DNA from: a virus
DNA: 21,086 nucleotides
IMG/VR virus record: IMGVR_UViG_3300025669_002485
Span: 1-21,086 of that record
Reading direction: 5' to 3' (one strand)
This document shows, in pieces, positions 420 to 21,086 of this stretch. Position 1 is the first letter of the stretch. Each line of letters starts with the position of its first letter. The position numbers were made by a program, and so were the translations under genes. Below the pieces are notes generated by a model that worked only from the letters and a program-made list of their open reading frames with translations, did not search any database and was not told the origin of the DNA.

Positions 420-439
420 AATTGGAAGGAATATTTTAA

Positions 440-3790: not shown

Positions 3791-3805
3791 AGGAGAAAAT
3801 AAATC

Positions 3806-4231: not shown

Positions 4232-4234
4232 TAA

Positions 4235-4975: not shown

Positions 4976-4991
4976 AAAGGAGGAACTAAAT

Positions 4992-5645: not shown

Positions 5646-5664
5646 TTTAAGAAAGGAATAATAA

Positions 5665-6054: not shown

Positions 6055-6070
6055 AAAGGAGGAGAATAAT

Positions 6071-6601: not shown

Positions 6602-6616
6602 TAAAGAGAATAAATA

Positions 6617-9499
6617 ATGTCATACGAACTTACTGACCTTCCACAGTCTGCAAATGTCCAGGCTTTCTGGAAATTTGAAGAAGCAAGTGGAATTATCTAT
6701 GATGAAACTACCAATGATAATGATGGTAGTTATAATGGAGCATTGTATCAACAGACTGGCAAAGTAGATTATGGTCTGGGATTGGATGGAGATAATGATA
6801 AAGTTAGTGTTAATGATAGTGCTAGTTTTGATGGAATTATTGCTAGTGGCAAAATTTCTATATCTATTTGGGTAAAATTTAATAATCTTACAGGGGGTCG
6901 TTTCGTTGATAAACGAGATGATGGTAATAATAAGAGGCAATGGGGTTTTGGTTATGATGCAACAAATGTAAATTTTATCACAAATGATGATGGAACTGCT
7001 GGTGGTTGGCTTGGGGTTTCTTTTCCATTATCTGGTAACATTACTACTGGTGTTTGGTATAATATTATGGGAGTTAATGATGGAACTAATGTAAAACTAT
7101 ATCTTAATGGTATTGAAAAGGGCACTGATACAGGAAATGCTACTATTTTTGATGGTAATGCCCCTATTGGAATTGGTGCTTATATTGGTGATGGAAGTGA
7201 AAATTCTAGTAATTTGAATGCCACAATAGATGAAGCAATAATTTGGGATAAAGATTTAACTCCTACTGAAGTTGAAGATGTATATAAACTTGGAAATGCA
7301 GAATGTTTGGAAGATACTCTTACTCTATCTGATGAGGTTAAGATTAGTCTTCGTCCTGAAAGAGAGGAATTGTCCGATACTATTAACTTATCAGATGAAA
7401 TACATGTTGCTAGATTATTTTATGCTGATGATTTGGAAGACACTATAAATTTATCTGACGAGATTGATGTTGAAACCTCTAAAAATTTAAAAGATACTAT
7501 AACTTTAAGTGACGATTTACATCTTGAAGTTATTGAACGTCCAGACATTGACAATGACTTTAGAAGTTGTATTGAAGTATTAGAAGATATAGATAATAAA
7601 TTTAATTCGGTTATCGAAGTTAGAAATGATAATATGAATGTGTTTAATAGTGTATTTGGTGTAAGAACTGACATTGGAGGTTATAACGACCTTAGAACAG
7701 AATTATTAGTAAGACATGACATCTTAAATGACTTTAGGACATTAGCCAAAGCACCAACAACTACTCCTTCTGTTCCAACTGGATTTGAAGGAAAAGATTG
7801 GGAAACCCCTGCTTCGGTGGCTTTTCAATCTAAAGGAAAAGAATACATTAAAGTTTATTTTGATAGTGTAGAACAAACAAATGTAGATATAGATACTATT
7901 ACTATAAATAAAATTTTAGATGGTGCTCATACTGCTACTTTTGTATTAGGAAAAGCTTATGACAGTGGAAAACCTGATATGGAATCTGTAGTAGAGATTA
8001 AATATGATGATAAATTACTTTATAAAGGTTACATTGTTCAAATAATGCCTACAGATGAACCTGATACTATTAAAATTAATTGTCAAGATAAATTTTGGAA
8101 ACAGAATAAAACTAGACATGATTTTTCAGTGGGTCATCCTCCAAGAGAAATAGGGGAAAGGACTTTCTATGAAACTATTAAAGAAGCATTGTTTTCAAAA
8201 TTTGGATGGGCTGTTGACATAGGCAATTTCACTCCACAAAACATAGACTTAAATGATACCCAAGAATCTAATGCTATTACCCAATTAATTAATGAAAGTG
8301 GTAATTATTCTTGGTATTATGATGAGAACGGAAATAAGAAGTTATGGAGAGCAGGAGAAGGTAGTATAATTAATTTACAACGACAGGAATTAAATACTAA
8401 TATTAATCTTTATCATGTATTGCGTCATAATTTAACTGACGATGTTTCTAATATAATTAACAAATACAAAGTAGTTATGGGAGATAAAGTTGAAAAGAAC
8501 ATTGATTACATAGCCAATGAAGGTTCTATTGAACATATGGCAATTCAATCCCAATCTATTCATGAAAAGGTTTATCCTGCTTGGAGTAATGATGATTATA
8601 CTAAATATGCAAAAAACACTGTTTCTGAATTTGGTATGGATAATGTAAAAAAAGTAGATGAAGAAATAGCAAAAGAAGCTTATACTAAATATTCATTTAA
8701 AAGTCTTAGAGGAGTTAATGAAGAATGGGATGACATTTATCCTCCTTACATAGTAATATCTGTGCCAAGAGGAAGATTTCTTGGTGGATATTTTATAACT
8801 ATAAAAGATTATAAAAAACGTGGAGAAGTGGTTGGTTTTAAGGATGAAGAAATCTTAACAGAGGGATTTACTATAGATTATGAAAACGAAACTGTAACTC
8901 TTGATGAGCAAGCTTATATAATACTATATAAGACAAGCAAGAAAGTAGACCCTAGTTATATGACAAAGCCTACAATTAAAGTTCATTTATGGAAAGTTAA
9001 ACGTTGGGAATGGGAAGAGGAAATGTCAGGTGAAGAAGAATATGAAAGTCCATTAATTTTTAATACTACTAAAATGTGTGATTATCCTGAAACTATTATG
9101 CAAACTTTAAGTCTTTCTAATTTAACAGTTCAGGAAGGTGGTCAATATACTAAACCAGGATACTGGGGAAGAGATGATGATGGAGATTTGGTATATTTTC
9201 CTGAAGAATTAGTAGTAATTCCTTCTTGGAATGATACTGAATTTGCTAAGGATTATGCTAATTATCTATTAAGTCAGACTTGTAACAAAAAGACCACTGG
9301 AAATATTAATTTGACTTTAGATACGATTTGCCATTACCATATTGACCTCTCCAAACGAATAAACATTACAGGAGTTACTGAAGAGGCACTGAATATAGAT
9401 TCGATGAATTTCAATATCGGTAGCTGGCTTGTTACTCTTAATCTTAAAAATGGTCGGGAATATAAAAGGCAAACCAGCATCCCGTATCGAGGAGAATAA
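6617..9499 (+). CDS. LamG-lectin / tandem-repeat / tail hub fusion protein
   Basis: A 960-residue three-part protein. Residues 10-226 match a concanavalin/LamG-like sandwich (Laminin_G_3 type): ALYQQTGKVDYGLGLDGDND, then ISIWVKF, a GVWYNIMGVNDGTNVKLYLNG stretch (in part) and a closing IDEAIIWDKDLTPTEV. Residues 231-379 hold two families of short repeats, listed separately. After a Thr/Pro linker (381-389), residues 395 to about 900 look like a gp27/GPD-type tail hub, with the strand run TINKILDGAHTATFVLG, a VEIKYDDKLLYKGYIV strand pair, a segment TFYETIKEAL, and NYSWYYDENGNKKLW. The hub would cap the tail tube, while the lectin would bind a host-surface or virion glycan. Carrying a lectin at the N-terminus of the hub is unusual, since receptor binding is generally placed at the C-terminus or in a separate fibre. 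The ribosome binding site is weak (AAAGAGAA). Confidence 0.82.
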   Translation: MSYELTDLPQSANVQAFWKFEEASGIIYDETTNDNDGSYNGALYQQTGKVDYGLGLDGDNDKVSVNDSASFDGIIASGKISISIWVKFNNLTGGRFVDKRDDGNNKRQWGFGYDATNVNFITNDDGTAGGWLGVSFPLSGNITTGVWYNIMGVNDGTNVKLYLNGIEKGTDTGNATIFDGNAPIGIGAYIGDGSENSSNLNATIDEAIIWDKDLTPTEVEDVYKLGNAECLEDTLTLSDEVKISLRPEREELSDTINLSDEIHVARLFYADDLEDTINLSDEIDVETSKNLKDTITLSDDLHLEVIERPDIDNDFRSCIEVLEDIDNKFNSVIEVRNDNMNVFNSVFGVRTDIGGYNDLRTELLVRHDILNDFRTLAKAPTTTPSVPTGFEGKDWETPASVAFQSKGKEYIKVYFDSVEQTNVDIDTITINKILDGAHTATFVLGKAYDSGKPDMESVVEIKYDDKLLYKGYIVQIMPTDEPDTIKINCQDKFWKQNKTRHDFSVGHPPREIGERTFYETIKEALFSKFGWAVDIGNFTPQNIDLNDTQESNAITQLINESGNYSWYYDENGNKKLWRAGEGSIINLQRQELNTNINLYHVLRHNLTDDVSNIINKYKVVMGDKVEKNIDYIANEGSIEHMAIQSQSIHEKVYPAWSNDDYTKYAKNTVSEFGMDNVKKVDEEIAKEAYTKYSFKSLRGVNEEWDDIYPPYIVISVPRGRFLGGYFITIKDYKKRGEVVGFKDEEILTEGFTIDYENETVTLDEQAYIILYKTSKKVDPSYMTKPTIKVHLWKVKRWEWEEEMSGEEEYESPLIFNTTKMCDYPETIMQTLSLSNLTVQEGGQYTKPGYWGRDDDGDLVYFPEELVVIPSWNDTEFAKDYANYLLSQTCNKKTTGNINLTLDTICHYHIDLSKRINITGVTEEALNIDSMNFNIGSWLVTLNLKNGREYKRQTSIPYRGE
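7307..7525 (+). repeat. Four tandem DT-LSDE protein repeats within the lectin/hub gene
   Basis: The encoded residues 231-303 contain four copies of a 13-residue unit: LEDTLTLSDEVKI, LSDTINLSDEIHV, LEDTINLSDEIDV and LKDTITLSDDLHL. They are spaced 18-21 residues apart. The consensus is L-x-D-T-I-x-L-S-D-E-I-x-V. They lie immediately after the LamG domain and read as short amphipathic beta units, perhaps a stalk between lectin and hub. The protein-level similarity is clear, while the DNA copies have diverged, so this is not a recent duplication. Confidence 0.9.
7541..7753 (+). repeat. Five 14-residue DI-NDF repeats within the lectin/hub gene
   Basis: Residues 309-379 of the lectin/hub protein carry a second, different repeat set: PDIDNDFRSCIEVL, EDIDNKFNSVIEVR, NDNMNVFNSVFGVR, a two-residue-longer copy TDIGGYNDLRTELLVR, and a terminal HDILNDFRTLAKA. 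The period is 14 residues and the consensus is x-D-I-x-N-x-F-x-S-x-I-E-V-R. They follow directly after the LSDE repeats and precede a Thr/Pro linker into the hub domain. They look like a spacer whose copy number can change, and their DNA has also diverged between copies. Confidence 0.88.
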
Positions 9500-9502
9500 A
9501 TT

Positions 9503-10234
9503 ATGTCCGAAAAAAGTTTAAATGACCGTATAGCCCAACTGGAAGATAAAATAAAAAATCTGGCTTCTCAGTTATCAATGGTGCACAAGAGCGTTAAGGG
9601 AAAAGGAAATTACGTTAAGCCCTATTCTAAAGTAAGTCCTCCACCTTTGAGAAGCACTTATAAATCAGTAGGACGATTAGGGGGAGGATTATCTGCTAGA
9701 TATGCAGGAGGAGTTCTTTGGAATGATGCAGAGACAAAAGATATTAAATGGTTTAGTCAACCTGAAACACCAACTAAAGGTTATAACAAACATGGTCATT
9801 CTCGTTATGCAGGAGGAGCTTTACCTATTAATACTTTAGAATTAGTAGAATATAAAACTAACGATGCAGGAGAGATTATAGATAAAGATGAAAAGGCATT
9901 AAATAAACATTGTCAGAGTTTTTGGACAAAAGAACCCGAAATTGCTAAATCAGATGTAGAAGGTTATGAAGATGTGGAAAAGATTGGAAATTTTTTAGTT
10001 GAATTTGACCCAGAGACTGGAACATGGCAAACATTAATAGATGTTCAAAGAACTTATATAGTGCGAAGAAATGCGGATGGAACTATTAAAACAGACCTAA
10101 GTGTAAATAAAATGAAATCTCCTTTAAATGATAAGGATGAAATAGATACTCATGTTAATCAGAATATGGTATGGGACACAAATAATCTAATATGGAGATT
10201 TTATGCAGTTTGGAGACCTTATGTTGCTCCATAA
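9503..10234 (+). CDS. Tail appendage protein with N-terminal coiled coil and RYAGG repeats
   Basis: Unrecognised 243-residue protein. Residues 5-28 form a classical heptad pattern (LNDRIAQLEDKIKNLASQL), probably a trimerising coiled coil. A flexible Pro/Ser/Gly region follows. Two copies of a short motif, ARYAGG at 65-70 and SRYAGG at 100-105, are each followed by a hydrophobic turn. The C-terminal half is soluble and Asp/Lys-rich, with no catalytic signature. The start has a good GAGGAG ribosome binding site four nt after the hub gene stop. Its place right behind the hub suggests a tail-tip or fibre-like structural protein. That is inference from context and the coiled coil, since no family was recognised. 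Confidence 0.83.
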   Translation: MSEKSLNDRIAQLEDKIKNLASQLSMVHKSVKGKGNYVKPYSKVSPPPLRSTYKSVGRLGGGLSARYAGGVLWNDAETKDIKWFSQPETPTKGYNKHGHSRYAGGALPINTLELVEYKTNDAGEIIDKDEKALNKHCQSFWTKEPEIAKSDVEGYEDVEKIGNFLVEFDPETGTWQTLIDVQRTYIVRRNADGTIKTDLSVNKMKSPLNDKDEIDTHVNQNMVWDTNNLIWRFYAVWRPYVAP

Positions 10235-10251
10235 TATAAAGAGGAAATAAG

Positions 10252-11325
10252 ATGGCTTGGTTAATAAATCCTGATGAATTGGCTAATAAACCTACTTATG
10301 GAAGAATATTAGTAGAAGCTATAAGAGCAATCAATGAAAGACAAAAAGCATGGGGTCGGGTTCAGTCAGTATTTTATAAATATGGTTTAGTAAAAACAAG
10401 TCTTGGAACTCCTGATGGTGGAATAAATATCCCTGCTTTAGATGCTCTTGATAATAGTCTTATGTGTGCTGAACAAATTCGTCAACTCAGAGACATTATA
10501 AAAAATTTAGCTGATGACATTTGGATTCCTGATGAATTTGATGATGATAATAATCCTAAAAAATATAATTGGATAGATGAAAATCCAGATAATTTGTATT
10601 ATAGAACTTTTGGAGATGGTTATACTTGGAAAGTTGCTAATATTAATAATGAATCTTTTTATGATATAACAATAAAAGAAATTTTAAAATGTATAGAAAA
10701 ACTTGATTGGATAGTTATTTATAAAGATAACGATTTTAGTTGGGGAGGTAATAAATATGTTTACATTAGTCGTTATCCCACAATTCCTCCAATTACTCCT
10801 ACAGAAGTTTGGCAAGCTTGTTTATCGGATACTCCTACATTTTGGAGAAATTATTTAGATGAATTTGGACTAGGAACAAACTTAGAAGAAATTACTGATG
10901 CTGACGCTAAAGCTTATATAATAAGGTATTATTTGCATTTTCCTACTTATATACCAGAAGACCCCCTTCTCCAAGTGAAACTTAATGGTAAATTTGGTAA
11001 TTATCGTGAGAATAAAGAAGTTCTTCAATTTTACAAAGGAACTTGGACAGGAACGGGTTCTCCTCCTTGGAATGCAGGAACTTCTCTTCTTTATGAATTT
11101 TCTCCAATTTCAGGAGGTTCTCATAAAATCTTTGATTTAGACTCTTCGGTTGTAAGTTCTGATGGTAATATAAGAATTTTTATAAAAATAAAAGCTGATG
11201 AAATACAACCTCTTGTTGATTGGGATGTTATACCTCCTGTTAATTGGGAAGCTGTAATAATATCTCAAGACCCTACTTTAATGATTAAAAGTCAGTGGGT
11301 TTATCCAGGAGAAATAATAGTTTAA
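10252..11325 (+). CDS. Hypothetical virion protein, last gene of the tail operon
   Basis: Unrecognised 357-residue protein. The first 95 residues are mostly helical (RILVEAIRAINERQKAWG near 18-35, then IRQLRDIIKNLADDIW near 76-91). The remainder is rich in Trp, Tyr, Pro and Asp and looks like a beta-rich surface domain, with FGDGYTWKV and a Gly/Ser/Pro turn region around GTWTGTGSPPWNAG. No enzyme motif, signal peptide or membrane segment is visible. A purine-rich AGAGGAAA ribosome binding site supports the start, 17 nt after the previous gene. It ends just before the strong terminator, closing the tail operon. A tail-tip or appendage role is inferred from position. Confidence 0.82.
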   Translation: MAWLINPDELANKPTYGRILVEAIRAINERQKAWGRVQSVFYKYGLVKTSLGTPDGGINIPALDALDNSLMCAEQIRQLRDIIKNLADDIWIPDEFDDDNNPKKYNWIDENPDNLYYRTFGDGYTWKVANINNESFYDITIKEILKCIEKLDWIVIYKDNDFSWGGNKYVYISRYPTIPPITPTEVWQACLSDTPTFWRNYLDEFGLGTNLEEITDADAKAYIIRYYLHFPTYIPEDPLLQVKLNGKFGNYRENKEVLQFYKGTWTGTGSPPWNAGTSLLYEFSPISGGSHKIFDLDSSVVSSDGNIRIFIKIKADEIQPLVDWDVIPPVNWEAVIISQDPTLMIKSQWVYPGEIIV

Positions 11326-11345: not shown

Positions 11346-11376
11346 AGCGGTCTTTAATTTAGACCGCTTTTTCTTT
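11346..11376 (+). terminator. Bidirectional rho-independent terminator between convergent operons
   Basis: A perfect 8-bp inverted repeat, AGCGGTCT (11346-11353) and AGACCGCT (11361-11368), encloses a seven-nt loop and is followed by TTTTCTTTT on the + strand. On the minus strand the same stem is followed by the complement of the A-run at 11337-11343, giving a run of seven T. It lies 21 nt after the last + gene and 23 nt beyond the stop of the last minus-strand gene. It can therefore end both transcripts. Confidence 0.92.
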
Positions 11377-11391
11377 TATCTTCCTTCTTTT

Positions 11392-12096
11392 TTAATTTTC
11401 TCTTATCCTCCATAACATTCTTATAAACCGCAAAGTATCCCTAAAAGGATGTATCTTACTCTTTCTTCCTTTTTCATAAATACACTTGATTGGCACACTT
11501 GTAATTTCTCCTCCTGACTTTCCTACTCTAATTAACATTTCACTTTCCCACTCAAATCTATCACTTCTAAATTGTAATTCAAACACACTTTTATGCACTA
11601 ATCTAAATCCGCACTGGGTATCAGGAATATTACGACCAGCCAAAATACTGATAATTTTACTCATAAACTTATTGGTTAATCGTCTAATTAAAGGCATTCC
11701 TACAGGGTTATGGAAACGATTTCCTACTATTATTTTAGCTTGAGGTCGTTGTTTAAGTGTTTCTATAAATTTGGGAATATCTCTAATATCGTTTTGTCCG
11801 TCACTGTCAAAAAATAAAACATAGTCCGTTTCTAATCCATTATAATATTTCTTAGTAGCTGTAGCGTAAAAAGCTCCTTGACGCATTGCAAACCCTTTAC
11901 CCATGTTGTTTGTGTATGAAATAAGGTTAAAATTAGTCCACTTTTGAACTGTTTTTAAATAAGTAAGAGAATTATCAGTTGAACCATCATTTACTATAAT
12001 ATACTTATAACCACTTCTCCATAATCTTCCACATAAATCTACAATGTGTTTTTCTTCATTAAATACAGGACTAATAATTACAATTTTAAAATTCAT
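11392..12096 (-). CDS. GT2 family glycosyltransferase, polyprenyl-phosphate sugar transferase-like
   Basis: A 234-residue single-domain GT-A enzyme that should move a sugar from a nucleotide donor. It resembles the dolichyl/polyprenyl-phosphate mannosyl or glucosyl transferase branch of GT2. Visible motifs: PVFNEE (10-15), VNDGSTDNS (35-43), GKGFAMRQGA (66-75), DSDGQND metal-binding motif (97-103), GNRF (125-128) and DTQCGFR (159-165). There are no C-terminal membrane helices, so it would be soluble or peripherally bound, unlike GtrB-type enzymes. The start overlaps the preceding gene's stop by one nt (TAATG), with AGGAG seven nt upstream inside that gene. It is the last gene of the minus-strand operon. 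Acceptor and sugar cannot be read from the sequence. Confidence 0.93.
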   Translation of the reverse strand: MNFKIVIISPVFNEEKHIVDLCGRLWRSGYKYIIVNDGSTDNSLTYLKTVQKWTNFNLISYTNNMGKGFAMRQGAFYATATKKYYNGLETDYVLFFDSDGQNDIRDIPKFIETLKQRPQAKIIVGNRFHNPVGMPLIRRLTNKFMSKIISILAGRNIPDTQCGFRLVHKSVFELQFRSDRFEWESEMLIRVGKSGGEITSVPIKCIYEKGRKSKIHPFRDTLRFIRMLWRIREN

Positions 12097-12818
12097 TATA
12101 ATACTCCTAATTCCTCTAAATCCTCTTTCATTAAAACTTTAATGTTCTTATTTGGGTATAATTTTCTAAATTGTCTAAACTTCTTTTTTGCTATATCTCT
12201 CCAATATCCTTTAATTTCAATGTAAGTATCAAACTCTGGCAAATAGAAATCAGGACGATAAGTCATTTCATCCAAGTCAAATGCCTTGGGTTCGTATAAC
12301 CACTTTATTTTATTACAATCCAAAAAGAAAGCAAATTTAATTTCGTAAGAAGACCTCATCCAAATTCCTTTATAATAATCTCCTTTTCCTCTACCTATAT
12401 GTTTATTATTATATATTTTTCCATAAGCAGAACTTTTTTTCCCAGAATAATATTTAGAATTACAATTATGACATCTTTTAGCTCTACAAACTATTTCAAT
12501 TTTTATCCCTTTCTCTAAGCAATCTATACAATAATTTATTTCTCTATATTTTAATTTACCACTTTTAAAACAATATTTAACTGCACAACTTGGACATCTT
12601 CCCCCTCCATAAATTCCACTTTGCCAATTTATTTCCTCTCCACAGTCTGAGCAATAATAAGTCTTGGAACATCTACCATCTATTAGACCATGTTTATTTC
12701 CTTTCATTCTTTTACTATTAATTTTCCCATTACATTTTCTACATCTCCCCTGTCCATACAAAGCAGTTTGATAACAAACTTCATTATCACAACCTTCTTC
12801 TATACAATAATGTTTCAT
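12096..12818 (-). CDS. Zinc-finger array PD-(D/E)XK endonuclease, mobile-type
   Basis: A 240-residue protein with three Cys4 modules in a row (C5/C10/C26/C29; C56/C59/C75/C78; C97/C100/C116/C119). A C-terminal Vsr-like or PD-(D/E)XK nuclease core follows: E159 in SSYEIKFAF, then RPDFYLP with D190, and IEIKG with E201 and K203. Such zinc-finger nucleases occur as free-standing homing endonucleases in phages. The first Cys of each module follows Tyr or an aromatic pair, and the second pair is in a G/K-R-C-x2-C context. Modules one and two are separated by an H...DGR....YYC linker that also occurs in the HNH enzyme at 4235-4975. The gene is integrated by a 4-nt ATGA overlap upstream and a TAATG overlap downstream. 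This is tighter than expected for a recent insertion. A repair-type Vsr role is an alternative. Confidence 0.85.
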   Translation of the reverse strand: MKHYCIEEGCDNEVCYQTALYGQGRCRKCNGKINSKRMKGNKHGLIDGRCSKTYYCSDCGEEINWQSGIYGGGRCPSCAVKYCFKSGKLKYREINYCIDCLEKGIKIEIVCRAKRCHNCNSKYYSGKKSSAYGKIYNNKHIGRGKGDYYKGIWMRSSYEIKFAFFLDCNKIKWLYEPKAFDLDEMTYRPDFYLPEFDTYIEIKGYWRDIAKKKFRQFRKLYPNKNIKVLMKEDLEELGVL

Positions 12819-13285
12819 TTTACTTCTTCTACTATTTTTGCTTTTTCAATATCTTTTGGAGTAGTTTTAAATATGTTCTGGTCTTTTCTAATATCTCTAT
12901 TCACAACTGAGAAACATAAATTTATAAAACTACAACAATTAATAAATGCTGTAGCTTTACCTCTCCAATTCAAATAAGCATTATAAAGATATGCTAAATA
13001 AGAATATTTATCTCCCATTTGAGCTTCTGCACAATAAATAATCTTCTCTTTTTCTTCTTCTGTTAATCCATTTATTCTTAACAATTTAGTTTTATATAAA
13101 AATTTATTTGAGTATTTAGTAATTTTACTTTTTTTAATTCCGTTTCCTTTAGCCCCTATTGTAAATTTATCATTTATGATTAACTCTACATGGTTATAAT
13201 TACATTTTGAGACTTTACGAATTAGGAAACCTATAAAATCGAAGTAATAACATACTAAAAGAATATCACAAGATTGTAGGGTCAT
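12815..13285 (-). CDS. Permuted papain-like (YiiX/NlpC-P60 type) cysteine hydrolase
   Basis: A 156-residue protein resembling the circularly permuted papain-like amidases (YiiX/YaeF, C92 type). These carry the catalytic His before the Cys. Here the N-terminal strand with CDILLV is followed by NHVELII (H32), and the Cys lies in NCCSFINLC (C117 or C118). The family commonly has Glu or Gln after Cys-Ser, and here it is Phe. That may alter activity. It has no signal peptide. Family members act on peptide or lipid-linked amide bonds. In a phage, lysis, DNA-entry or host-surface roles are possible but unproved. The gene overlaps its neighbours by ATGA on both sides, with AGGAA before the start, so it is part of the glycan operon. 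Confidence in the fold is moderate. Confidence 0.65.
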   Translation of the reverse strand: MTLQSCDILLVCYYFDFIGFLIRKVSKCNYNHVELIINDKFTIGAKGNGIKKSKITKYSNKFLYKTKLLRINGLTEEEKEKIIYCAEAQMGDKYSYLAYLYNAYLNWRGKATAFINCCSFINLCFSVVNRDIRKDQNIFKTTPKDIEKAKIVEEVK

Positions 13286-13596
13286 TTTAATATTCCTAAT
13301 ACTATTATATGAAAACTTTGGTCATATACCAAATTTAACCACATAGGCAAAGATTTGTTTTTAGGATTTATTAAGTTAGGATAAATCTTCTTTCCAATTC
13401 CAAAATAGTCAATTATAAAGTGAGTTATGAAAACTATTGCAAGTTTATTAATTTCCCAATGTGAGAATAACCAAATCCCAAAAGTATATAATAAACAATG
13501 TAATATCATAGAAAAAATTGATTGTATTTTAGTTCTTGCCAACCAGTCATTTTGTAAAAGAAAATCACCAAATAAATGCCCTGCTAATAAATTCAT
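13282..13596 (-). CDS. DUF3307 integral membrane protein
   Basis: A 104-residue hydrophobic protein matching DUF3307, a small membrane family common in phages, plasmids and bacteria, with no known function. The conserved pattern is present: H7 and GDFLLQ (10-15), W18, K23, HCLLYT (33-38), HFIIDY (59-64) and the late DQSFH (92-96). Hydrophobic stretches at about 28-44, 51-65 and 88-103 suggest three helices. The reiterated His and Asp residues hint at a metal- or proton-binding site in the membrane. AAGGAG lies about ten nt before the start. It overlaps both neighbours by ATGA. Placement next to a papain-like hydrolase and glycan enzymes suggests an envelope-linked job. Confidence 0.85.
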   Translation of the reverse strand: MNLLAGHLFGDFLLQNDWLARTKIQSIFSMILHCLLYTFGIWLFSHWEINKLAIVFITHFIIDYFGIGKKIYPNLINPKNKSLPMWLNLVYDQSFHIIVLGILK

Positions 13597-14324
13597 TGTA
13601 ATTTCTCCTTTATGTATTCTCTCAACTCATTTTGGTCATAAGTATGTTTGTCTAGCATTTTAAAGAAAGTAGAATAATCTATTTTAGGAAAGGTAGGGAT
13701 GCGACTGTCAGGTGAAACATTGTATATGCGAATTTTCTTTTCATTTTTATAGACGGAAAAATCTTTTTTTGCACGGTCTTTTGCATTATAGTAATTTATC
13801 TTGCCCGTGCCCCGATGGGTTAATTCCTCCTGATAAAAATGTGTGAGATACTTCTTCCCACTTTTATCTACTATTCTAGCTTGTTCAATAGCTCGTAAAT
13901 CAGATTTATCATAACCCTTTTTTCTGGCTTCTCCATAATCAAATCCGAGCAGGAAGCAAATGCCAGAATCTAATATATGTATTCCCAAAGATAAACTGAA
14001 AATTCCTACCAAACTTGATTTATAACACCCTTTCCTAACATCTCTATTATACTTGCTAGTGCCTTGTAAGAAAATAGTATTAGGAAGTTTACCTTCTTTG
14101 AAGCGATGAGTTTTACCGATTATCAGGGGTAATTTGGCTAATTCTTCTCTCTGTTGGTCGTAGAAAGTGCGGTCTACATAGCATAATATCGTGGAATCAA
14201 AGTAATTGAAGCTGTAGTTTAAGCCTATTGTAAACCTTCCCTTTAGCTTATCCCAAAGTCCCATAGAGAGTGCAGGTTTAATGCTTGAGCCTCCACCTAT
14301 TATGATAAGTTGATTTGGGTTCAT
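13593..14324 (-). CDS. DUF115-like glycosyltransferase-fold protein
   Basis: A 243-residue protein resembling DUF115/MptE-like and sialyltransferase-like (GT42 type) folds. Features are a Gly-rich nucleotide loop IIGGGSS (8-14), GLNYSFNYF at 34-42, YVDRTFYDQ at 49-57, and the C-terminal SGICFLLGFDYGE at 120-132. The last matches the typical strand ending in LLGFD of these families. It would bind a nucleotide or nucleotide-sugar and transfer a sugar or pyrophosphoryl group. DUF115 proteins are recurrent in phages and in flagellin or surface glycosylation loci. The start uses AGGAA ten nt upstream and comes after a 60-nt gap, the longest in the operon. It may therefore have somewhat independent translation. 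The fold call is moderate and the reaction is not established. Confidence 0.65.
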   Translation of the reverse strand: MNPNQLIIIGGGSSIKPALSMGLWDKLKGRFTIGLNYSFNYFDSTILCYVDRTFYDQQREELAKLPLIIGKTHRFKEGKLPNTIFLQGTSKYNRDVRKGCYKSSLVGIFSLSLGIHILDSGICFLLGFDYGEARKKGYDKSDLRAIEQARIVDKSGKKYLTHFYQEELTHRGTGKINYYNAKDRAKKDFSVYKNEKKIRIYNVSPDSRIPTFPKIDYSTFFKMLDKHTYDQNELREYIKEKLQ

Positions 14325-14384
14325 TTATTTATTGTTCCTATGTTTTAATTTGTTACTGTTTTAGTAATAAAATGGAATATAAGT

Positions 14385-15032
14385 TCAATTATTTGTTTTT
14401 ATCCATTCTTTATTGTGCCTGTTTTTTAGCCTTCGAGATGCCTGGTTATGGTAAATTACAATATCCTTTTCTTTTAACATATGTAGGGGCAAAGTATTAT
14501 TTTGATTAGGAAACACTATGTAGCTATAAGGCAATTCATAAACTTTCAAATCCTTCCTTCTATTTACAACTACTTCCATACTTCTCTGCTCTATGGTATT
14601 TGGGCTTTTGGAAATTTCTTCAATGAACTCCTCCACTAACCCAATTACCTTTGAATTGTAATTTAGATACATTGTGCCACTAAGAAGATGAAATTTATTC
14701 CCATCCTTTTGTTTTCGCCACCTCCACATCCAGTTCAAAAAATGCACACCAATATCGTATTCATTAGGAATCTCCCAGAAAAGAGAAGGATACTTTTTTA
14801 CTTCAGCATCTGAATCAAGGAACACAATACTTGACCCCTCATGTTTATGAAGCATTTTAAGAATAAATTCCGACTTATAGCTCGTATTAGCTTGCCATGA
14901 ACCTCTATCTTCAGGATACTCTATATCATATTCCAAATTAAACTTCTTTAAAGATGGAATTAGAAATTTATTTATTACATCAATATAAGGAGTTTCTGCT
15001 GTCGCATATGAACAAAAAATAATCTTCTTCAT
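14385..15032 (-). CDS. GT-A fold nucleotide-sugar transferase
   Basis: A 215-residue protein with a GT-A-like arrangement: an N-terminal strand KKIIFCSYAT, a long helical segment, then SIVFLDSDAEV with the D73-x-D75 metal-binding motif. An acceptor-loop-like LLSGTMYLNYN (116-126) and a C-terminal YHNQASRRLK (194-203) follow. This organisation resembles the nucleotide-diphospho-sugar transferases of the PF03407-like type. No membrane segment is seen. Its ATG overlaps the upstream methyltransferase stop by ATGA, with AAAGGAT upstream. Together with the GT2, DUF115-like and capsule-type genes it makes the fourth sugar-transfer candidate in the operon. The family call is by motif only. Substrate and linkage are unknown. 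Confidence 0.75.
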   Translation of the reverse strand: MKKIIFCSYATAETPYIDVINKFLIPSLKKFNLEYDIEYPEDRGSWQANTSYKSEFILKMLHKHEGSSIVFLDSDAEVKKYPSLFWEIPNEYDIGVHFLNWMWRWRKQKDGNKFHLLSGTMYLNYNSKVIGLVEEFIEEISKSPNTIEQRSMEVVVNRRKDLKVYELPYSYIVFPNQNNTLPLHMLKEKDIVIYHNQASRRLKNRHNKEWIKTNN

Positions 15033-15775
15033 TTCTTTATCCTTTTATCTACTGTTACTTTTCCGTGAAAACAATATTGATAACCTACTTCCCCATATTC
15101 ATCGTAAGTGGTTGTTTTATAAATTCCCCTTCTTTTCCAATCATCATTACTAATCATTTTACCACAAGGACAAATTATTCCATGTTTCATTTCTTTAGGA
15201 ACTCTTACCAAACAAATAAGATTAAACCCATTTAATCTATCAGGAACTTTCTCTAAAGATACTAATTCTAATCCAATCTTTTTAACATAATTTCTTATTT
15301 CTTTTTCACTAAAATGTTCCCAATGCCATTTAGAACGTTTTACAGGAATGCTTATATGAGGCACAGAGAAAATTAAGTATTCCTTAGTCCATTCTTTAAA
15401 TTTATCAAATAATTTATCAATATCTTTTATATGTTCCACTATCTCAAAAGCAACCACAACATCATACTTTTCTTTAATGTCAAAAACATCTCCACAAAGA
15501 TAGTTTATGTTTTTTCTTTTCCAATAAACATTGGCATAATCTATAGCTTCTTTACTATCGTCTATTGCTATTACCTTTCTTGCCTTGTTTGCTAATAAAA
15601 CACTCCCATAACCACATCCACAACCCAAATCTAATACTGTGTCAGTATTTTTAACTATTGTATAGGCTCTTTTATATCTATCTATATGAGTGGGTTCTAT
15701 TTTGTCTAAAGAAATTGCTACTTGTCTTTCTCCAGAATTTAATCTTTTATCTTGGTCTTTTCTTTGTTCGTTCAT
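15029..15775 (-). CDS. Class I SAM methyltransferase with C-terminal cysteine motif
   Basis: A 248-residue SAM-dependent methyltransferase of the Methyltransf_11/23 type. Motif I is VLDLGCGCGYGS (47-58), the acidic ribose contact is IDDSKEAI (71-78), then CGDVFDI (94-100), with FEIVEHI at 110-116 as the post-motif. After the Rossmann core comes a 50-residue extension with CPCG (202-205) and a later YCFHG (234-238). This is a possible small metal-binding finger not usual for the family. The first 30 residues include SGERQVAIS, reminiscent of O-methyltransferases in polysaccharide loci. It overlaps both neighbouring genes by ATGA. The acceptor is not evident; a sugar hydroxyl or carboxyl is likely in this context. 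Confidence 0.9.
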   Translation of the reverse strand: MNEQRKDQDKRLNSGERQVAISLDKIEPTHIDRYKRAYTIVKNTDTVLDLGCGCGYGSVLLANKARKVIAIDDSKEAIDYANVYWKRKNINYLCGDVFDIKEKYDVVVAFEIVEHIKDIDKLFDKFKEWTKEYLIFSVPHISIPVKRSKWHWEHFSEKEIRNYVKKIGLELVSLEKVPDRLNGFNLICLVRVPKEMKHGIICPCGKMISNDDWKRRGIYKTTTYDEYGEVGYQYCFHGKVTVDKRIKK

Positions 15776-16818
15776 TTTCTTGTTCCTATTAATACAAAAT
15801 ATCCTCTAACTTTATGCTTATAAACTTTAACATTAAATCCTGCTTCAGTAAATAATTTTCTTACACTTATTTCTCGATTTAAAGCCAAACTATTAATTTG
15901 ACTTCTTCGTTCTTTTGCTCTTGTTGGAATGACTACTACTTTGCATAAAGGTAATATTTTTTCTTTTAATAATTTTATTTCTTCATTGTTCATATGATAT
16001 AAAACAAAAGAAGCAACCAAAGCATTGCAAGTTGGTTTATTATTCAAAGCATAATTCTTGAAACTGGTATTGTAAAGTTTTACTTTTTCATTATTTCCCC
16101 ACAGTGATTTTATACAATCCACAGTTATTTGAGCTTGTTTATAATATTTCTCTTGCTTTTCTAAGGCAATAAGACTTTTAGCATGTTGCATAATAGACCA
16201 AATAAACATACCTGCATTGCATCCTATATCCAAAACTCTACATCCATCTAAAACAGATAAATGTTTGGAAGCAAAATCAAGACGTTGTTTTACATTTCCA
16301 TGTGTATGATAAGGTTTAATAGCTTTATCCCATTTCTTGGCAATTTTACTATGAATTATTTCAGGGATTATGGTATCTTTTATTGCTTTAAGATTACCAA
16401 AATTATAATCAGGATGACTATAAACAACATCTACAGGAATTTCTTTAATACCTAATTGTTGGGCACAGAACAATCTATGTCGCCCATCAACTAATAAAAT
16501 ATCTCCATCTCTTCCAATAGCAACTTCCACACTTCTCATGTTTGGGTTTTGAATGTAACCTTTTGTTTTAATGTTTTCATACAAACCTTCCCAATTATAA
16601 ACAGATTTTTTACCTGATTTAAACAATAAAAAATCCCTATGAAATCTACTATCATAAATTGTTTGCTTGGTTGTATCCCAACTACCTGTTAAAATCTCTC
16701 CAATTAATTTAAACTTTTTTTCATTAATTCTTCTTACTCTAGTAGTTATACACCCACCTATTGGAGAAACTCTTTTTACTACCTTTGGGTCTATAAATAT
16801 CTCATTTTTCTTTCTCAT
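15772..16818 (-). CDS. ParB-like domain fused to SAM methyltransferase
   Basis: A 348-residue two-part protein. Residues 97-131 carry a ParB/sulfiredoxin-fold signature: VEVAIGRDGDILLVDGRHRL with the conserved DGRHR at 111-115, followed by ALG-type and IPVDVVY strands. Residues 190-345 are a methyltransferase, with VLDIGCNAG (195-203), an acidic ribose contact at E220 and a VLYHMNNEEI-like catalytic loop. ParB-like folds include nucleotide- and ATP-binding enzymes as well as DNA-binding proteins. In polysaccharide loci such fusions may act as small-molecule kinases or modifying enzymes, not in chromosome partition. I infer a carbohydrate role here from the neighbours. GGAGG near the start supports translation one nt after the radical SAM gene. 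It shares ATGA with the next gene. Confidence 0.82.
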   Translation of the reverse strand: MRKKNEIFIDPKVVKRVSPIGGCITTRVRRINEKKFKLIGEILTGSWDTTKQTIYDSRFHRDFLLFKSGKKSVYNWEGLYENIKTKGYIQNPNMRSVEVAIGRDGDILLVDGRHRLFCAQQLGIKEIPVDVVYSHPDYNFGNLKAIKDTIIPEIIHSKIAKKWDKAIKPYHTHGNVKQRLDFASKHLSVLDGCRVLDIGCNAGMFIWSIMQHAKSLIALEKQEKYYKQAQITVDCIKSLWGNNEKVKLYNTSFKNYALNNKPTCNALVASFVLYHMNNEEIKLLKEKILPLCKVVVIPTRAKERRSQINSLALNREISVRKLFTEAGFNVKVYKHKVRGYFVLIGTRK

Positions 16819-16819
16819 A

Positions 16820-18091
16820 CTATTGTTTCCTCCATTTTTTAATATTTACTCGTAATTGTTTCATAAATTTTACAAACTCTACTTTACTAATACTATCATT
16901 TGTGTATAACCAATTACTATCAAGGTCTCCAGGATGTATTTGTATTCTTGAAAAGTCCATATCCAAAGACACTTTGCCCTTTTCATACATTCTTTGCCAT
17001 AATGGACTCCCTGGAAGTGGTTGGCAACAATATTGCATGAAAGATTTAAACTTGTGTTTTCCATTCCATTTTTTAAGAAATTCACTTGTCTTATTCATAC
17101 TCTCTAATGTCTCTCCAGGATAACCCCATACAGAAGAAGCCCCTGACCTTATTCCATGTTTACCAAATAAAGTAATACAATTTTCAAAATCTTTAGTAGT
17201 CACTCTACCTTTTTTCATTGCATTTAATATTTTCGGTGAGGCAGATTCTAATCCAAATCCTGCTAATTTTAATCCCAAGTCCTTTAATACTCTTACAATG
17301 TCATCAGTTACCAATTCAGAATTAACAGAACCTTTCACTATCTTAACTTTACCTAATAGATTTCTTTTATTTAATTCTTCTTTTAATCCTACTACTTTCT
17401 TCAAATTAAAAAAAGAAATGTCATCCAAAAAAACATAATTAGTCTTACCACTTTTTTTATAATGAGTTTCTATTATATCCACCAATCTTTGAGGAGATAA
17501 ATATCTAAAGGGTCTCCAAATAGCCTGTTCAGAACAATGGTCACAGTTATTTACACATCCTCTTGTTGTTAGTATTGCAACAGCGTCTCCGAAGTCGTAT
17601 TTAATCTGGGGATAAATTGGAATGGGCAATTCATCCATAGGAAGTGGCTTTCTTGATTTGTTAATTATTATTCTATTACCATCCCAAAATGAAATTCCAT
17701 CAACTTCTTCTAAACAACCCATTTTGTATTTCTCTATGTGCTTTAATAATTCTACTATTGTTACTTCTCCTTCTCCTAATATTCCTATATCCACCTCTTT
17801 GGACATGGTTAGAGGCAGGGCTGTGATGTGAGTTCCTCCCATAATTATCAAAGAACCCAATTTGTCCTTGGTTTCTTTAGCTAATCTTTTAGCAATCATA
17901 TAGGATTCAGTAGCAGAAGAAATTCCAACTATATCAGGCTTAAATTTAACTATCTCATCTAAGGAATAACAAATCTTAATATCTATATCTAATTTAGCCT
18001 CTCTCATACTTGCTATGAGATAATCAAATGTTACTGAATGACTCTTTCTCTGTCTCTCATGTAAAAATACTTTAATTAATGCTAATTTCAT
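16820..18091 (-). CDS. Radical SAM protein with cobalamin-binding-type N-terminal domain
   Basis: A 423-residue protein of the B12-binding plus radical SAM architecture. The N-terminal Rossmann-like domain has DIVGISSATESY (53-64), LIIMGGTHITALP (81-93) and VDIGILGEGE (100-109). These match the cobalamin-domain pattern GG-x-H-x-T-x-x-P and GEGE. The radical SAM cluster motif is C179-x3-C183-x2-C186 in RGCVNNCDHC. SAM-binding elements follow: LKLAGFGLESAS near 275 and a later GYPGET. Such enzymes form 5'-deoxyadenosyl radicals and, with cobalamin, methylate unreactive carbons or phosphorus, or rearrange substrates. No DxHxxG cobalamin-ligand motif is seen, as in many members. AAGGAG precedes the start. 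It is one of two adjacent radical SAM genes. The reaction is unknown. Confidence 0.93.
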   Translation of the reverse strand: MKLALIKVFLHERQRKSHSVTFDYLIASMREAKLDIDIKICYSLDEIVKFKPDIVGISSATESYMIAKRLAKETKDKLGSLIIMGGTHITALPLTMSKEVDIGILGEGEVTIVELLKHIEKYKMGCLEEVDGISFWDGNRIIINKSRKPLPMDELPIPIYPQIKYDFGDAVAILTTRGCVNNCDHCSEQAIWRPFRYLSPQRLVDIIETHYKKSGKTNYVFLDDISFFNLKKVVGLKEELNKRNLLGKVKIVKGSVNSELVTDDIVRVLKDLGLKLAGFGLESASPKILNAMKKGRVTTKDFENCITLFGKHGIRSGASSVWGYPGETLESMNKTSEFLKKWNGKHKFKSFMQYCCQPLPGSPLWQRMYEKGKVSLDMDFSRIQIHPGDLDSNWLYTNDSISKVEFVKFMKQLRVNIKKWRKQ

Positions 18092-18103
18092 TTCTTTTTC
18101 TCC

Positions 18104-19135
18104 TTATCTTATTTGCATGTTATACTCTAAAGGACTCTTTCCGTCATAAAATTTAGTTCCAGGAAAAGCTTGAAATTTGTAAAAACCACCTACAATCAAT
18201 TTTCCTTTATTTATTTTTATAAAATTCTTAGTTGCCTCAACATCTTCCCTTGTTTCTTGTGGGAAATCATGTATGAAAGAAGCAGAAATACTTAATCCTG
18301 CTCTATTTGCTATGTCTATGGTTTTCTGATTATCCTCTACAGTGGCTTGCTTGTTGTAAATTTTAAGTATCCTATTACTTCCACTCTCTGCCCCAAACTT
18401 TATCCTTCTACATCTCATTTCCTTGAGCATTTTGGCTTTCTCTTCTGTTAATAATTTCGCCCTCACTTGGATTTCAAGATAAAGTCTTTTGTTGAATTCT
18501 TCCCTCATCCACAATTCATAAAATTCATTGAATCTTTTAGTATTAGCTATAAATAAATCATCCTGTAAATAAACTATCATTGCATGGGGATTATTTTTGA
18601 AAACCTGCTTTATTTCTTTTATTATGTATTGTGCACCATGAAATCTTGCCCTTTTCCAATAGGTATGTGAGGAGCAATAATAGCAATTAAAAGGACATCC
18701 TCTTGAAGTCATAAAGGACATTAATTTAGTAGGACATTTTCCCCTAAATGGATGTTTTATAGTGTCTAAATTCTCTATTAAAGGTTCTCTTATTATTTTA
18801 GTTTCCACTTTATTATCTATAATCTTTTGAAAAGCATTTTCACCTTCTCCTATCACTATATGCTTAAAAGGATAATCTTTTAATCCTTCCCAAAGAGTCC
18901 CCTGCCCACCTATTACAATTGGAATTTTAGTTGAATCAAGAATAAGTATTGCTTCTTTTAATCCTTGCACTACACTTGATAGTCCTATTAAATCACAGTC
19001 TTTCAATTCCTCTCTATTCTTAATTATTTCAATGTCAGCATTAATACAATTAGATTTTAAATAACCAAGCCCCAAAGGGTATTCAGAGTATCTATTATTC
19101 AGTTCCCCACCACATTGATAAAGTTTAATTTTCAT
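18104..19135 (-). CDS. Radical SAM protein with shortened cobalamin-type domain
   Basis: A 343-residue protein. Residues 20-110 look like a reduced cobalamin-binding-type Rossmann domain: YPLGLGYL, DLIGLSSVVQ (48-57), IPIVIGGQGTLWEGL (71-85) and HIVIGEGENA (92-101). His-Thr of the longer paralogue's GGTHIT is absent here (GGQGTL). The radical SAM motif is C147-x3-C151-x2-C154 in RGCPFNCYYC, followed by RIKFGAESGS near 241-250 and FIHDFPQET around 288-296. It starts inside the upstream chimera gene with an 11-nt overlap and a weak ribosome site (GGAA), so it is probably translationally coupled. It has the same overall plan as the radical SAM gene at 16820-18091 but is only distantly similar to it. 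The reaction is not identifiable. Confidence 0.92.
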   Translation of the reverse strand: MKIKLYQCGGELNNRYSEYPLGLGYLKSNCINADIEIIKNREELKDCDLIGLSSVVQGLKEAILILDSTKIPIVIGGQGTLWEGLKDYPFKHIVIGEGENAFQKIIDNKVETKIIREPLIENLDTIKHPFRGKCPTKLMSFMTSRGCPFNCYYCSSHTYWKRARFHGAQYIIKEIKQVFKNNPHAMIVYLQDDLFIANTKRFNEFYELWMREEFNKRLYLEIQVRAKLLTEEKAKMLKEMRCRRIKFGAESGSNRILKIYNKQATVEDNQKTIDIANRAGLSISASFIHDFPQETREDVEATKNFIKINKGKLIVGGFYKFQAFPGTKFYDGKSPLEYNMQIR

Positions 19136-19835
19136 ATACTTTTTCCATAATTTTATACATTTCCATTTCTGTAAGGATAATCTTGGTCTTACTTGGTTTA
19201 AGATTTATCGAGTAAATATATTTCTCCAAAGGCAGTTCACAATAAGTGAATATTTTCTTTAGCTCTTTAGCAGGGTTATTAATTAAGTCCAAATAATTTA
19301 AGGTATAAAAATCTGTATTTTTTCTACATTTCTCTACATAGTCTATAGTTTCATTCCATTTATTTATAACCTCTTCCAACTTAAATTTTGGAACTCTATG
19401 TTTGAATGAATTAATAACTCCTATTGGATTCCTATAAATTGCTATTATTTTGGGTTCTAGAAAGATTTTAGGAAGTATTGAAACAGCAAAGGAAAGTGCA
19501 GGTGCTTTTAGAAGGAGTCTTTTCTCTTCAAGATTTTTGCTTACTTCTTTTCTTATTTTCTCTCTAATTGCTCGGTAAGGAGATACAAAAGAAGCTAATA
19601 CCCAAATACCTTGTTTTAAAAATAATTTAGATAATTCAGTTACTCTTCTTAAATTCTCATTCCTATCTTCTTTTGAAAATCTCAAATCTTTCCATAATTT
19701 ACCTCTCACAATATCCCCATCTAATCTTTGATTAGATATGTTCATTGTGTTTAATACTTTGGACAATTCATCCATAAGAGTAGTTTTCCCACTACAAGGA
19801 ATTCCAGTAGCCCAAATCAAATATGCTTTATTCAT
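19125..19835 (-). CDS. APS kinase-sulfotransferase chimera
   Basis: A 236-residue fusion. Residues 1-98 follow adenylylsulfate kinase (CysC): Walker A GIPCSGKTT (11-19), LDGDIVR (38-44), FSKEDRNEN (53-61), RR at 63-64 and SFVSPYR (82-88). CysC normally continues into a substrate-lid third with CEKRD and KGLYKKA motifs, which is absent here. Residues 105-236 instead look like the back half of a PAPS sulfotransferase: LLLKAPALSF (107-116), the 3'-phosphate-binding motif R135 to S143 in YRNPIGVINSF (same eight-residue spacing as in SULT enzymes), W160 and YLDLINNP (181-188). It would phosphorylate APS to PAPS and pass sulfate on. Whether each half is active is inference. It overlaps the upstream capsule-type gene by ATGA and the downstream radical SAM gene by 11 nt. 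Confidence 0.85.
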   Translation of the reverse strand: MNKAYLIWATGIPCSGKTTLMDELSKVLNTMNISNQRLDGDIVRGKLWKDLRFSKEDRNENLRRVTELSKLFLKQGIWVLASFVSPYRAIREKIRKEVSKNLEEKRLLLKAPALSFAVSILPKIFLEPKIIAIYRNPIGVINSFKHRVPKFKLEEVINKWNETIDYVEKCRKNTDFYTLNYLDLINNPAKELKKIFTYCELPLEKYIYSINLKPSKTKIILTEMEMYKIMEKVYEN

Positions 19836-21019
19836 ACTCCTAATCTTCTCCGAATACGAATTCTATCTCTCTTAACGAAATGTCTATTATATAAAAATCT
19901 GTAAAAATATAAGAACCATAATTTCATCTGGTTTACATTGATAATGTATTCAGGGTTTTCTTTTACTTTTTTCCAATTTAAACTGTTAGAATATTCCAAA
20001 GTAAATCCCTTCTGAGAAAAATAGGCATCACCAAAGACTACAACTGGTTTTTCTAATAAACATGCCTCTAAACCGCACTGAGAGGTATTAACGAACACTA
20101 AATCGGCTCTTTTGATTAGTTCTTGTGTATTAATAGTTTGGTCTTTAAATCCACTTACTATTACAACATTTTGGGGCTTTTTCTGTTTTTCTAACCATTT
20201 CCCTGTTTGTCCCCATTTTCTATGATGATACTTATCTTCTTTGGGATGACATTTTAAAATTACATTCCAATCCTTAAATTCTGTCTCAGCCAGTTCAAAA
20301 ACTCTTTTAATAAAAGTCTCATTGTTAAATTGAGAATCATACAAAGTAACTTGGTCTGCATAAACCTGAAGAGGAACAAAAATAGTTTTATCATACTTTA
20401 AAGTTGGTAATTTTCTTTCAGAAGGAGTAGGATAATTAAGAGATTCAAATACCTTTTTTATAATTTCATCGACTTCTTTTTCTCGTTCTGGAGTTAGCAC
20501 TCTCGTATCCAGCCAGTCCTGAGAGCATCTGGCAAACAAATGTCTATTAACTATGAAACCAGTATCAAAATCAATAAAAATCTTATCTTTGATAAAGGAA
20601 TTTTCAATAGTAATTATACCTATTCCCATCTCCCTTGCTACCTCTGCACAAGCCCTTGCATAATAAGTTAATCCTCCTTCTATCATTATATAATCGGGGT
20701 TTTCTTCTTTGAATGTTTTAAAACACCAATCTATTATAGCCATTGTCCTTTTAATCCATTTAACTTCCATTGCTTTATTATTACCATACCAATTTATCTC
20801 TCTTGCCATTGCTACTTTTATCATGTTTCTCAAATTAAATCCTTTATGATAAGGGTCTGCTGTTTCTGGTAAGGGCATTTCAAAGACTCTCATACCTCTA
20901 CCTACCTTGCCAGGTTCTATTCTCTTGAGTTCTACCCCACTTTTTTTAAGAAAAGCAAATTGATGTTTATTCTTGGGGAATACCCAACACATCCAATCCA
21001 AAAGAATTATTTTTCTCAT
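19832..21019 (-). CDS. Capsule polysaccharide synthesis-type glycosyltransferase
   Basis: A 395-residue protein with the Capsule_synth (KpsC/KpsS/LipB-like, PF05159) signature in its second half: IFVPLQVYADQVTLYDSQF (213-231), VILKCHPKE (253-261), then INTQELIKRADLVFVNTSQ and CGLEACLLEKPVVVFGDAYF (296-334). The first half, with YIMIEGGLTYYARACAEVA near 110-128 and ITIENSF, is a Rossmann-like donor or acceptor domain. Members transfer Kdo or other sugars during capsule or lipopolysaccharide export. It is the first complete gene of the minus-strand operon. GGAG lies seven nt upstream of the ATG, and its start overlaps the stop of a truncated upstream gene (ATGA). Donor sugar is not readable. 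The absence of Wza/KpsM-type export genes in the window is noted. Confidence 0.88.
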   Translation of the reverse strand: MRKIILLDWMCWVFPKNKHQFAFLKKSGVELKRIEPGKVGRGMRVFEMPLPETADPYHKGFNLRNMIKVAMAREINWYGNNKAMEVKWIKRTMAIIDWCFKTFKEENPDYIMIEGGLTYYARACAEVAREMGIGIITIENSFIKDKIFIDFDTGFIVNRHLFARCSQDWLDTRVLTPEREKEVDEIIKKVFESLNYPTPSERKLPTLKYDKTIFVPLQVYADQVTLYDSQFNNETFIKRVFELAETEFKDWNVILKCHPKEDKYHHRKWGQTGKWLEKQKKPQNVVIVSGFKDQTINTQELIKRADLVFVNTSQCGLEACLLEKPVVVFGDAYFSQKGFTLEYSNSLNWKKVKENPEYIINVNQMKLWFLYFYRFLYNRHFVKRDRIRIRRRLGV

Positions 21020-21086
21020 TTATTTCTCCACATTACAAATGGCGGTTTCTTAATTAATTTACTTTGGTCTAAATTATCTATAAAAT
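21016..21086 (-). CDS. C-terminal end of an upstream operon gene (truncated by window)
   Basis: On the minus strand an open frame enters from the right edge and ends in a TGA that overlaps the ATG of the capsule-type gene (ATGA), the same junction type used throughout this operon. The visible 22 residues end in KKPPFVMWRNK. The other two frames are closed by stops within this 67-nt stretch. The family cannot be judged. Confidence 0.6.
   Translation of the reverse strand, partial: FIDNLDQSKLIKKPPFVMWRNK

Follow-up and report, generated by a model that had tools for sequence, protein, structure and literature searches.

A phage-borne, hypervariable glycan-decoration locus beside the tail module of uncultured tailed phages

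The tail module and the convergent cassette

The window analysed here is the entire IMG/VR record IMGVR_UViG_3300025669_002485, a linear, metagenome-derived fragment of 21,086 bases in which two operons converge: a tail module of eleven plus-strand genes (positions 6-11325), large tail proteins among them, and a cassette of 12 minus-strand open reading frames (ORFs) that tile positions 11392-21019 head to tail. Between the two lies a two-way terminator-like hairpin (11346-11368; AGCGGTCT-N7-AGACCGCT) with a T run on both strands. The cassette is a phage-borne, hypervariable glycan-decoration locus that recurs next to the tail genes across a lineage of uncultured tailed phages of roughly 100 kb. 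A first-pass annotation had described at least eleven tightly packed genes in this block, and this is borne out by overlaps of 4 nucleotides (nt; six instances), 1 nt and 11 nt (one each) and by gaps of 1, 12 and 60 nt. A ribosome-binding site of the GGAG/AGGA type is found upstream of most of the genes, and codon usage favours the frame of every gene over its two alternatives. Upstream of the first gene the record runs on for just 67 nt, so that the cassette is truncated at 21086.

Comparison with Pfam, PHROGs and NCBIfam identified four glycosyltransferase candidates, two S-adenosylmethionine (SAM) methyltransferases, two radical SAM proteins and one hybrid of an adenosine 5'-phosphosulfate (APS) kinase and a sulfotransferase. 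The four sugar-transfer candidates, a number already proposed in the first-pass annotation, are a GT2/GtrB-like protein, a Maf/sialyltransferase-like protein, a protein with a weak Nucleotid_trans match and a Capsule_synth protein. The remaining three of the 12 genes, which encode an endonuclease, a C92 amidase-like protein and a DUF3307 membrane protein, are not obviously related to decoration.

Distribution in the phage lineage

The first radical SAM protein, used as the query against viral contigs, led to one close relative, the 104-kb contig G001. Its tail genes are in identical order and the neighbouring opposite-strand cassette holds homologues of 11 of the 12 window cassette genes, plus more; the DUF3307 gene is missing and the hybrid is matched over its kinase half only. 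The flank of the G001 cassette away from the tail genes holds SbcCD-like genes (a label that rests on Metallophos and weak SMC matches) and an intein-bearing family B DNA polymerase, followed further off by RecA and a primase-polymerase. Since the G001 cassette thus sits between replication genes and the tail module, it is bordered by phage genes on both sides. The polymerase gene itself (L008:3466-7056) is split by an intein that bears a LAGLIDADG-like domain.

With an alignment of g6, a tail gene, as the query, 15 viral loci were retrieved. Full comparison with the window covered ten contigs (G001, G004, G005, G006, G007, G008, G009, G010, G013 and G015), G012 and G014 being left out of the counts because their match figures were identical to those of G013 and G009, respectively, as expected of second copies. 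In all ten the tail module is followed by a convergent cassette, so that the gene arrangement sought in other viral contigs was found in G001 and in nine more phages. Genes g1, g2, g4, g6, g7 and g9 of the tail module are kept in every relative and most tail genes are common to eight to ten of them, the exceptions being a mobile HNH gene (6/10) and g11 (0/10). Among the cassette genes, the gene at 13593-14324, referred to here as the core gene, is shared by all ten, a DxD transferase by seven, the C92 protein and the endonuclease by six each and the kinase half of the hybrid by five, the others being shared by none to three.

Scans of viral contigs with the cassette genes, using both single proteins and alignments, found only G001; further matches, L002 and L004, proved to be unrelated loci. 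A nucleotide search in cultured phages gave no match, and neither did tblastn at the limits used with the tape-measure protein, g9, the ParB-like methyltransferase, CapS or the G001 terminase candidate. For the first radical SAM protein, tblastn matches were limited to Streptomyces phage SF3 and an unannotated phage record, at approximately 24% identity. Of two genome-collection scans one returned nothing, and the patterns used were narrow, such that cellular homologues may exist; an Auribacterota bin with a 26% identical radical SAM protein was not taken as the host. A reading of the block as a defence system was also set aside, PADLOC having given just weak, generic matches to methyltransferases, endonucleases and radical SAM proteins.

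The invariant core gene

The core gene (13593-14324, minus strand) is present near the tail module in all eleven phages, the window included. The eleven homologues align over their full length, with a GGG-x-S motif, D51, H162 and H170 conserved. PF01973 (MptE-like, the Maf_flag10 family) is matched by one of the eleven members at E 2.6e-4 and not by the window protein, the PHROG label of alpha-2,3-sialyltransferase is weak, and a PDB sequence search gave nothing usable, as was also the case for the DxD transferase (14385-15032) and the methyltransferase at 15772-16818. An AlphaFold2 model was obtained (predicted local distance difference test, pLDDT, 87.6; predicted template modelling score 0.86). 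Foldseek searches with this model gave weak matches (best E 0.008). The top match by VIA-align was the catalytic domain of Magnetospirillum Maf (5mu5), with Z 14.5 and an rmsd of 4.3 over 199 aligned residues, followed by the GT42 sialyltransferases CstII and CstI (Z approximately 9), MptE (8.7), SteA (8.5) and mammalian sialyltransferases (7-8), while other folds scored 4.4 or less.

Maf enzymes O-glycosylate serine and threonine residues of flagellin with nonulosonic acids, and CbMaf accepts the cytidine monophosphate (CMP)-activated sugars CMP-Neu5Ac and CMP-Kdo (PMC11339370). The phage protein resembles them in its predicted fold but differs in being a phage-encoded, stand-alone domain of 243 residues that covers just residues 269-530 of the 632-residue 5mu5 and occurs with no flagellin. 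Because the N- and C-terminal domains that flank the central PF01973 domain in the three-domain Maf architecture are absent, it was not filed as a Maf. Its likeness to CstI and CstII is likewise one of fold, at 14-16% identity and with scores below that of the Maf match. We predict from the model that the core protein works like the catalytic domain of a Maf or GT42 enzyme; the fold match alone says nothing on substrate. No description of a Maf-like core in a phage was found in a partial literature search with few terms.

Sulfation genes and the hybrid

Sulfation genes recur in the lineage, APS kinase scoring over its cut-off in 7 of 12 records, or 7 of the eleven phages (the copy in G015 runs into the contig end), and Sulfotransfer_3 in 8 of 12, or 8 of the eleven, with the window hybrid included in both counts. 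In relatives the APS kinases and sulfotransferases are full-length and encoded by separate genes, and in G008 a sulfotransferase-type gene comes directly after an APS kinase gene, the two overlapping by 4 nt. Several of the phage APS kinases (L008:13181-13927 and L033:10684-11430) carry an N-terminal extension of approximately 70 residues with hydrophobic stretches, which suggests membrane attachment. In the cassette of G007 an APS kinase gene adjoins a gene for a PHO4-family transporter (L035:14157-15648), possibly a sulfate or phosphate importer. A search for ATP sulfurylase gave no match, so APS would have to be supplied by the host.

The window gene at 19125-19835 (minus strand) joins an APS kinase N-terminal half (residues 1 to approximately 103) to a sulfotransferase C-terminal half (approximately 104-236). 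PF01583 matches residues 4-102 (profile positions 2-100 of 152) and PF13469 residues 90-204 (86-215 of 216), and the first part shows 46-55% identity to the APS kinases of other phages. The complete kinase domain is not there: the APS kinase equivalog TIGR00455 is matched over positions 17-115 of 184 only, at 109 bits against a cut-off of 138.7, and the C-terminal FTG...PYE region is missing. The 3'-phosphate-binding half of the sulfotransferase is recognised (Sulfotransfer_3, 41 bits against a cut-off of 27), while profile positions 1-85 are unmatched and the P-loop of the APS kinase stands in place of the N-terminal 5'-phosphosulfate-binding loop. The kinase motifs and the RNP...S region of the sulfotransferase are kept, and codon usage is normal in both halves. 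No second copy of this architecture was found in our searches, and the fusion rests on one assembled contig in which a local misjoin within 19125-19835 is possible. The sulfation chimera of the first-pass annotation is therefore real as a gene fusion on this contig; sulfation by the window phage itself is doubtful because its sole sulfation gene lacks one half of either parent. Two adjacent genes of these kinds were probably fused by an in-frame deletion, and the resulting hybrid may be inactive.

Radical SAM, methyltransferase and other cassette genes

Both proteins that had been called cobalamin-type radical SAM enzymes are radical SAM proteins, the B12 domain being clear in only one. The first (16820-18091, minus strand, like all the cassette genes described here; 66% identity to G001) has a B12-binding domain (PF02310, E 1e-12) and a radical SAM core (PF04055, E 9e-22) with a CxxxCxxC motif at residues 179-186, its cysteines conserved in G001. 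The second (18104-19135; 56% to G001) has the core (PF04055, E 1.6e-21; CxxxCxxC at 147-154) and a weak PF02310 match of 18 bits against a cut-off of 32 (E 0.0025). They resemble enzymes of the BchE, MJ_0865 and MJ_1487 type, below every curated cut-off. Within the lineage these genes occur in the window and G001 only, accompanied by both methyltransferases. The pairing of sulfation with radical SAM chemistry, which the first-pass annotation had singled out as unusual, is thus not a trait of the lineage, since sulfation recurs and radical SAM genes are found in only two phages. Judging from their neighbourhood, our guess is that the radical SAM enzymes methylate part of the glycan.

The methyltransferase at 15029-15775 (PF13489, E 1.5e-13) ends in a small Cys/His segment that in G001 is a separate ORF of 71 residues, a second gene fusion in the window. 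The other, at 15772-16818 (PF08003, E 1e-6; 50% to G001), had been described as fused to ParB. It too stands as a methyltransferase; the N-terminal ParB/Srx-like segment, with its DGRHR motif, has no Pfam match even at E 1 and a weak PHROGs match (phrog_4715, E 0.006).

The gene first in the cassette (19832-21019) encodes a KpsC/KpsS-like Capsule_synth glycosyltransferase (PF05159, E 1.6e-20; KpsC structures, E 2e-5). Next to the core gene is the DxD transferase (14385-15032), a glycosyltransferase-like protein (PF03407, E 0.007) with an invariant D73-x-D75. At the end of the cassette nearest the tail module lies a GtrB/AglJ-like GT2 gene, polyprenyl-phosphate sugar transferase-like (11392-12096; PF00535, E 3e-18; phrog_841, GtrB-like, E 7e-23), also found in G001 and G004, whose product has no predicted transmembrane (TM) helix. 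The DUF3307 small membrane protein (13282-13596) matches PF11750 at E 7e-11 and the C92 permuted-papain amidase-like protein (12815-13285) matches PF05708 at E 8e-4, below cut-off. The Cys-rich PD-(D/E)XK or homing-type endonuclease gene (12096-12818; phrog_9019/945), of which several copies lie at separate sites in G001, is probably a mobile passenger. It and the HNH gene (4235-4975) belong to a lineage-wide scatter of such genes in tail modules and cassettes, with many sites in G001, and these homing-type endonuclease genes possibly help cassette exchange.

In the tail module the tape-measure protein is encoded at 794-3790 (PHROG_28 match). Residues 231-960 of the large tail protein g9 (6617-9499) are common to relatives and the first 230 or so are not. 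The last tail gene, g11 (10252-11325), adjoins the cassette and, unlike the other tail genes, has no homologue in any of the ten relatives. A variable gene beside a variable cassette would fit a receptor-binding or glycan-acceptor protein, for which g11 is a candidate.

Other genes in the cassettes of relatives

An RmlD-type reductase, Polysacc_synt_2 and a UDP-GlcNAc 2-epimerase, a combination known from UDP-FucNAc-type pathways, are common to G005, G006 and G010 (families read in G005, and by clusters in the others). G005 further carries LicD, ornithine-cyclodeaminase-like and class V aminotransferase genes, and G007 a KdsA-type DAHP_synth_1 protein, its PHO4-family transporter and two Pfam-recognised sulfotransferases. 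By a simple hydropathy count the cassette proteins are mostly soluble and multi-pass proteins are few, chiefly the 7-TM transporter of G007 and a small 6-TM protein in G009. A search for a CMP-sugar synthetase gave no match, so CMP-sugars would have to be host-supplied.

A proposed role in virion glycosylation

The first-pass annotation had proposed a tail-adjacent pathway decorating a glycan on the virion or the host surface. That the locus is phage-borne and linked to the tail is established by the flanks in G001 and by nine more phages; between the two surfaces we lean to the virion. The Wzx flippase (PF01943) was found in 0 of 12 contigs against 13 of 14 control genomes and the initiating transferase Bac_transf (PF02397) in 0 of 12 against 9 of 14, in records that may be fragments, so that two hallmarks of a Wzx/Wzy-type surface polysaccharide locus are missing from the 12 contigs (Wzy was not searched for). 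These absences and the largely soluble nature of the cassette proteins do not resemble a self-contained surface-polysaccharide locus and speak for sugar transfer within the cytosol. Together with the Maf-like fold of the core model, the missing genes point to a virion protein glycosylated in the cytosol more than to a rebuilt host polysaccharide. In such a pathway the invariant Maf/GT42-like enzyme would take a host-made CMP-activated sugar, a nonulosonic acid or Kdo, and place the first sugar on a serine or threonine of a virion protein, most likely a variable tail protein. The KpsC/S-like, GtrB-like and DxD transferases would extend the glycan, which would then be modified by the methyltransferases and B12 radical SAM enzymes, joined in relatives by APS kinase and sulfotransferases. 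Cassette turnover would give the virion surface a different charge and antigenicity, or would protect it.

We put the chance that a Maf/GT42-like enzyme of this tail-linked locus glycosylates a virion protein in the cytosol at about even, since several points weigh against it. The acceptor protein remains hypothetical, and a core protein of 243 rather than 632 residues, with no flanking Maf domains, is not assured of a protein acceptor at all; GT42 enzymes of the same fold act on glycans, and the GtrB-like gene hints at lipid-linked sugars. The missing flippase genes count for little, as the flippase of the host could serve a phage, and the records of the lineage may be fragments. The AlphaFold2 model of the hybrid (pLDDT 57.5) was too poor for a fold search. 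The same locus might instead serve superinfection exclusion or masking by remodelling the host envelope during infection (lipopolysaccharide, capsule, S-layer or a teichoic-type polymer), with lipid carriers and flippases borrowed from the host. This we hold to be the less probable course, though one to be taken seriously: the KpsC/S-like and GtrB/AglJ-like proteins of the window and the LicD and UDP-sugar enzymes of relatives are typical of surface-polymer loci, but Wzx and Bac_transf are absent, membrane proteins are few, the site beside the tail genes is fixed, and the sole invariant gene best matches the domain fold of a protein O-glycosyltransferase. Hypermodification of phage DNA with sugars, in evasion of restriction, is very improbable. 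Phage glycosyltransferases can reportedly glycosylate DNA (Pyle et al. 2024, cited in PMC12619734); the enzymes here belong to surface-glycan and protein-glycan families, and a hydroxymethylase of the thymidylate-synthase type was found in 0 of 12 contigs against 9 of 14 control genomes, in a search that did not extend to TET-type oxygenases. A linear, metagenome-derived record might be suspected of carrying host chromosome or of being mis-assembled, but for this block the idea is hardly credible given that the junction of tail module and cassette recurs in other contigs of the lineage, which refutes it for the block as a whole. Neither host chromosome beside a prophage end nor a restriction of homologous operons to cellular loci was what the comparison found, the two genome-collection scans being weak on the latter.

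For the hybrid the rival to a decayed gene is a working one-piece enzyme, in which the P-loop half of the kinase substitutes for the 5'-phosphosulfate-binding half of the sulfotransferase. Both parents are P-loop folds, the ORF is intact with normal codon usage throughout, and the kinase motifs and RNP...S region survive; against this, the FTG...PYE region of the kinase and the N-terminal P-loop of the sulfotransferase are lost, there is an additional strand-helix unit at the junction, the confidence of the model is low and the architecture was seen once. On balance a working hybrid is unlikely. A bolder account of the lineage as a whole, which we put forward tentatively and regard as doubtful, is that these phages glycosylate their own tail proteins by the Maf-like core, finish the glycan with sulfate and radical-SAM-installed groups and swap the finishing genes as surface variation, one member sulfating by means of a half-kinase, half-sulfotransferase.

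Relation to known systems and significance

Glycans are reportedly carried on the capsid and tail tube of mycobacteriophages (Freeman et al. 2023, cited in PMC12619734 and PMC10568470), and to that extent the systems are alike; here the predicted pathway is encoded by a cassette of up to approximately 20 genes, in which a Maf-like core is accompanied by genes for sulfation, methylation and sugar nucleotides. O-antigen conversion by phage gtrABC shares the GtrB-like gene with this locus but has a smaller cassette, and no recognised GtrA or GtrC partner is present in the window. Compared with known APS kinases (CysC) and sulfotransferases dependent on 3'-phosphoadenosine 5'-phosphosulfate, the relatives have full-length enzymes and the window one half of each, fused. 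No paper joining phage, sulfotransferase, radical SAM and glycosyltransferase was found among those searched. Within phage-encoded glycosylation, the locus stands out by its Maf-like core and its recurring sulfation genes.

Sulfotransferases have been reported in phages with an unclear role (PMC10580990). Their recurrence here with APS kinase in one tail-linked glycan locus points to a concrete one, the making of sulfated glycans on virions or hosts. The constancy of the Maf-like gene amid changing cassettes points to attachment of the first sugar as the key step, and the cassettes of the lineage form a natural series of variants for the study of phage surface variation.

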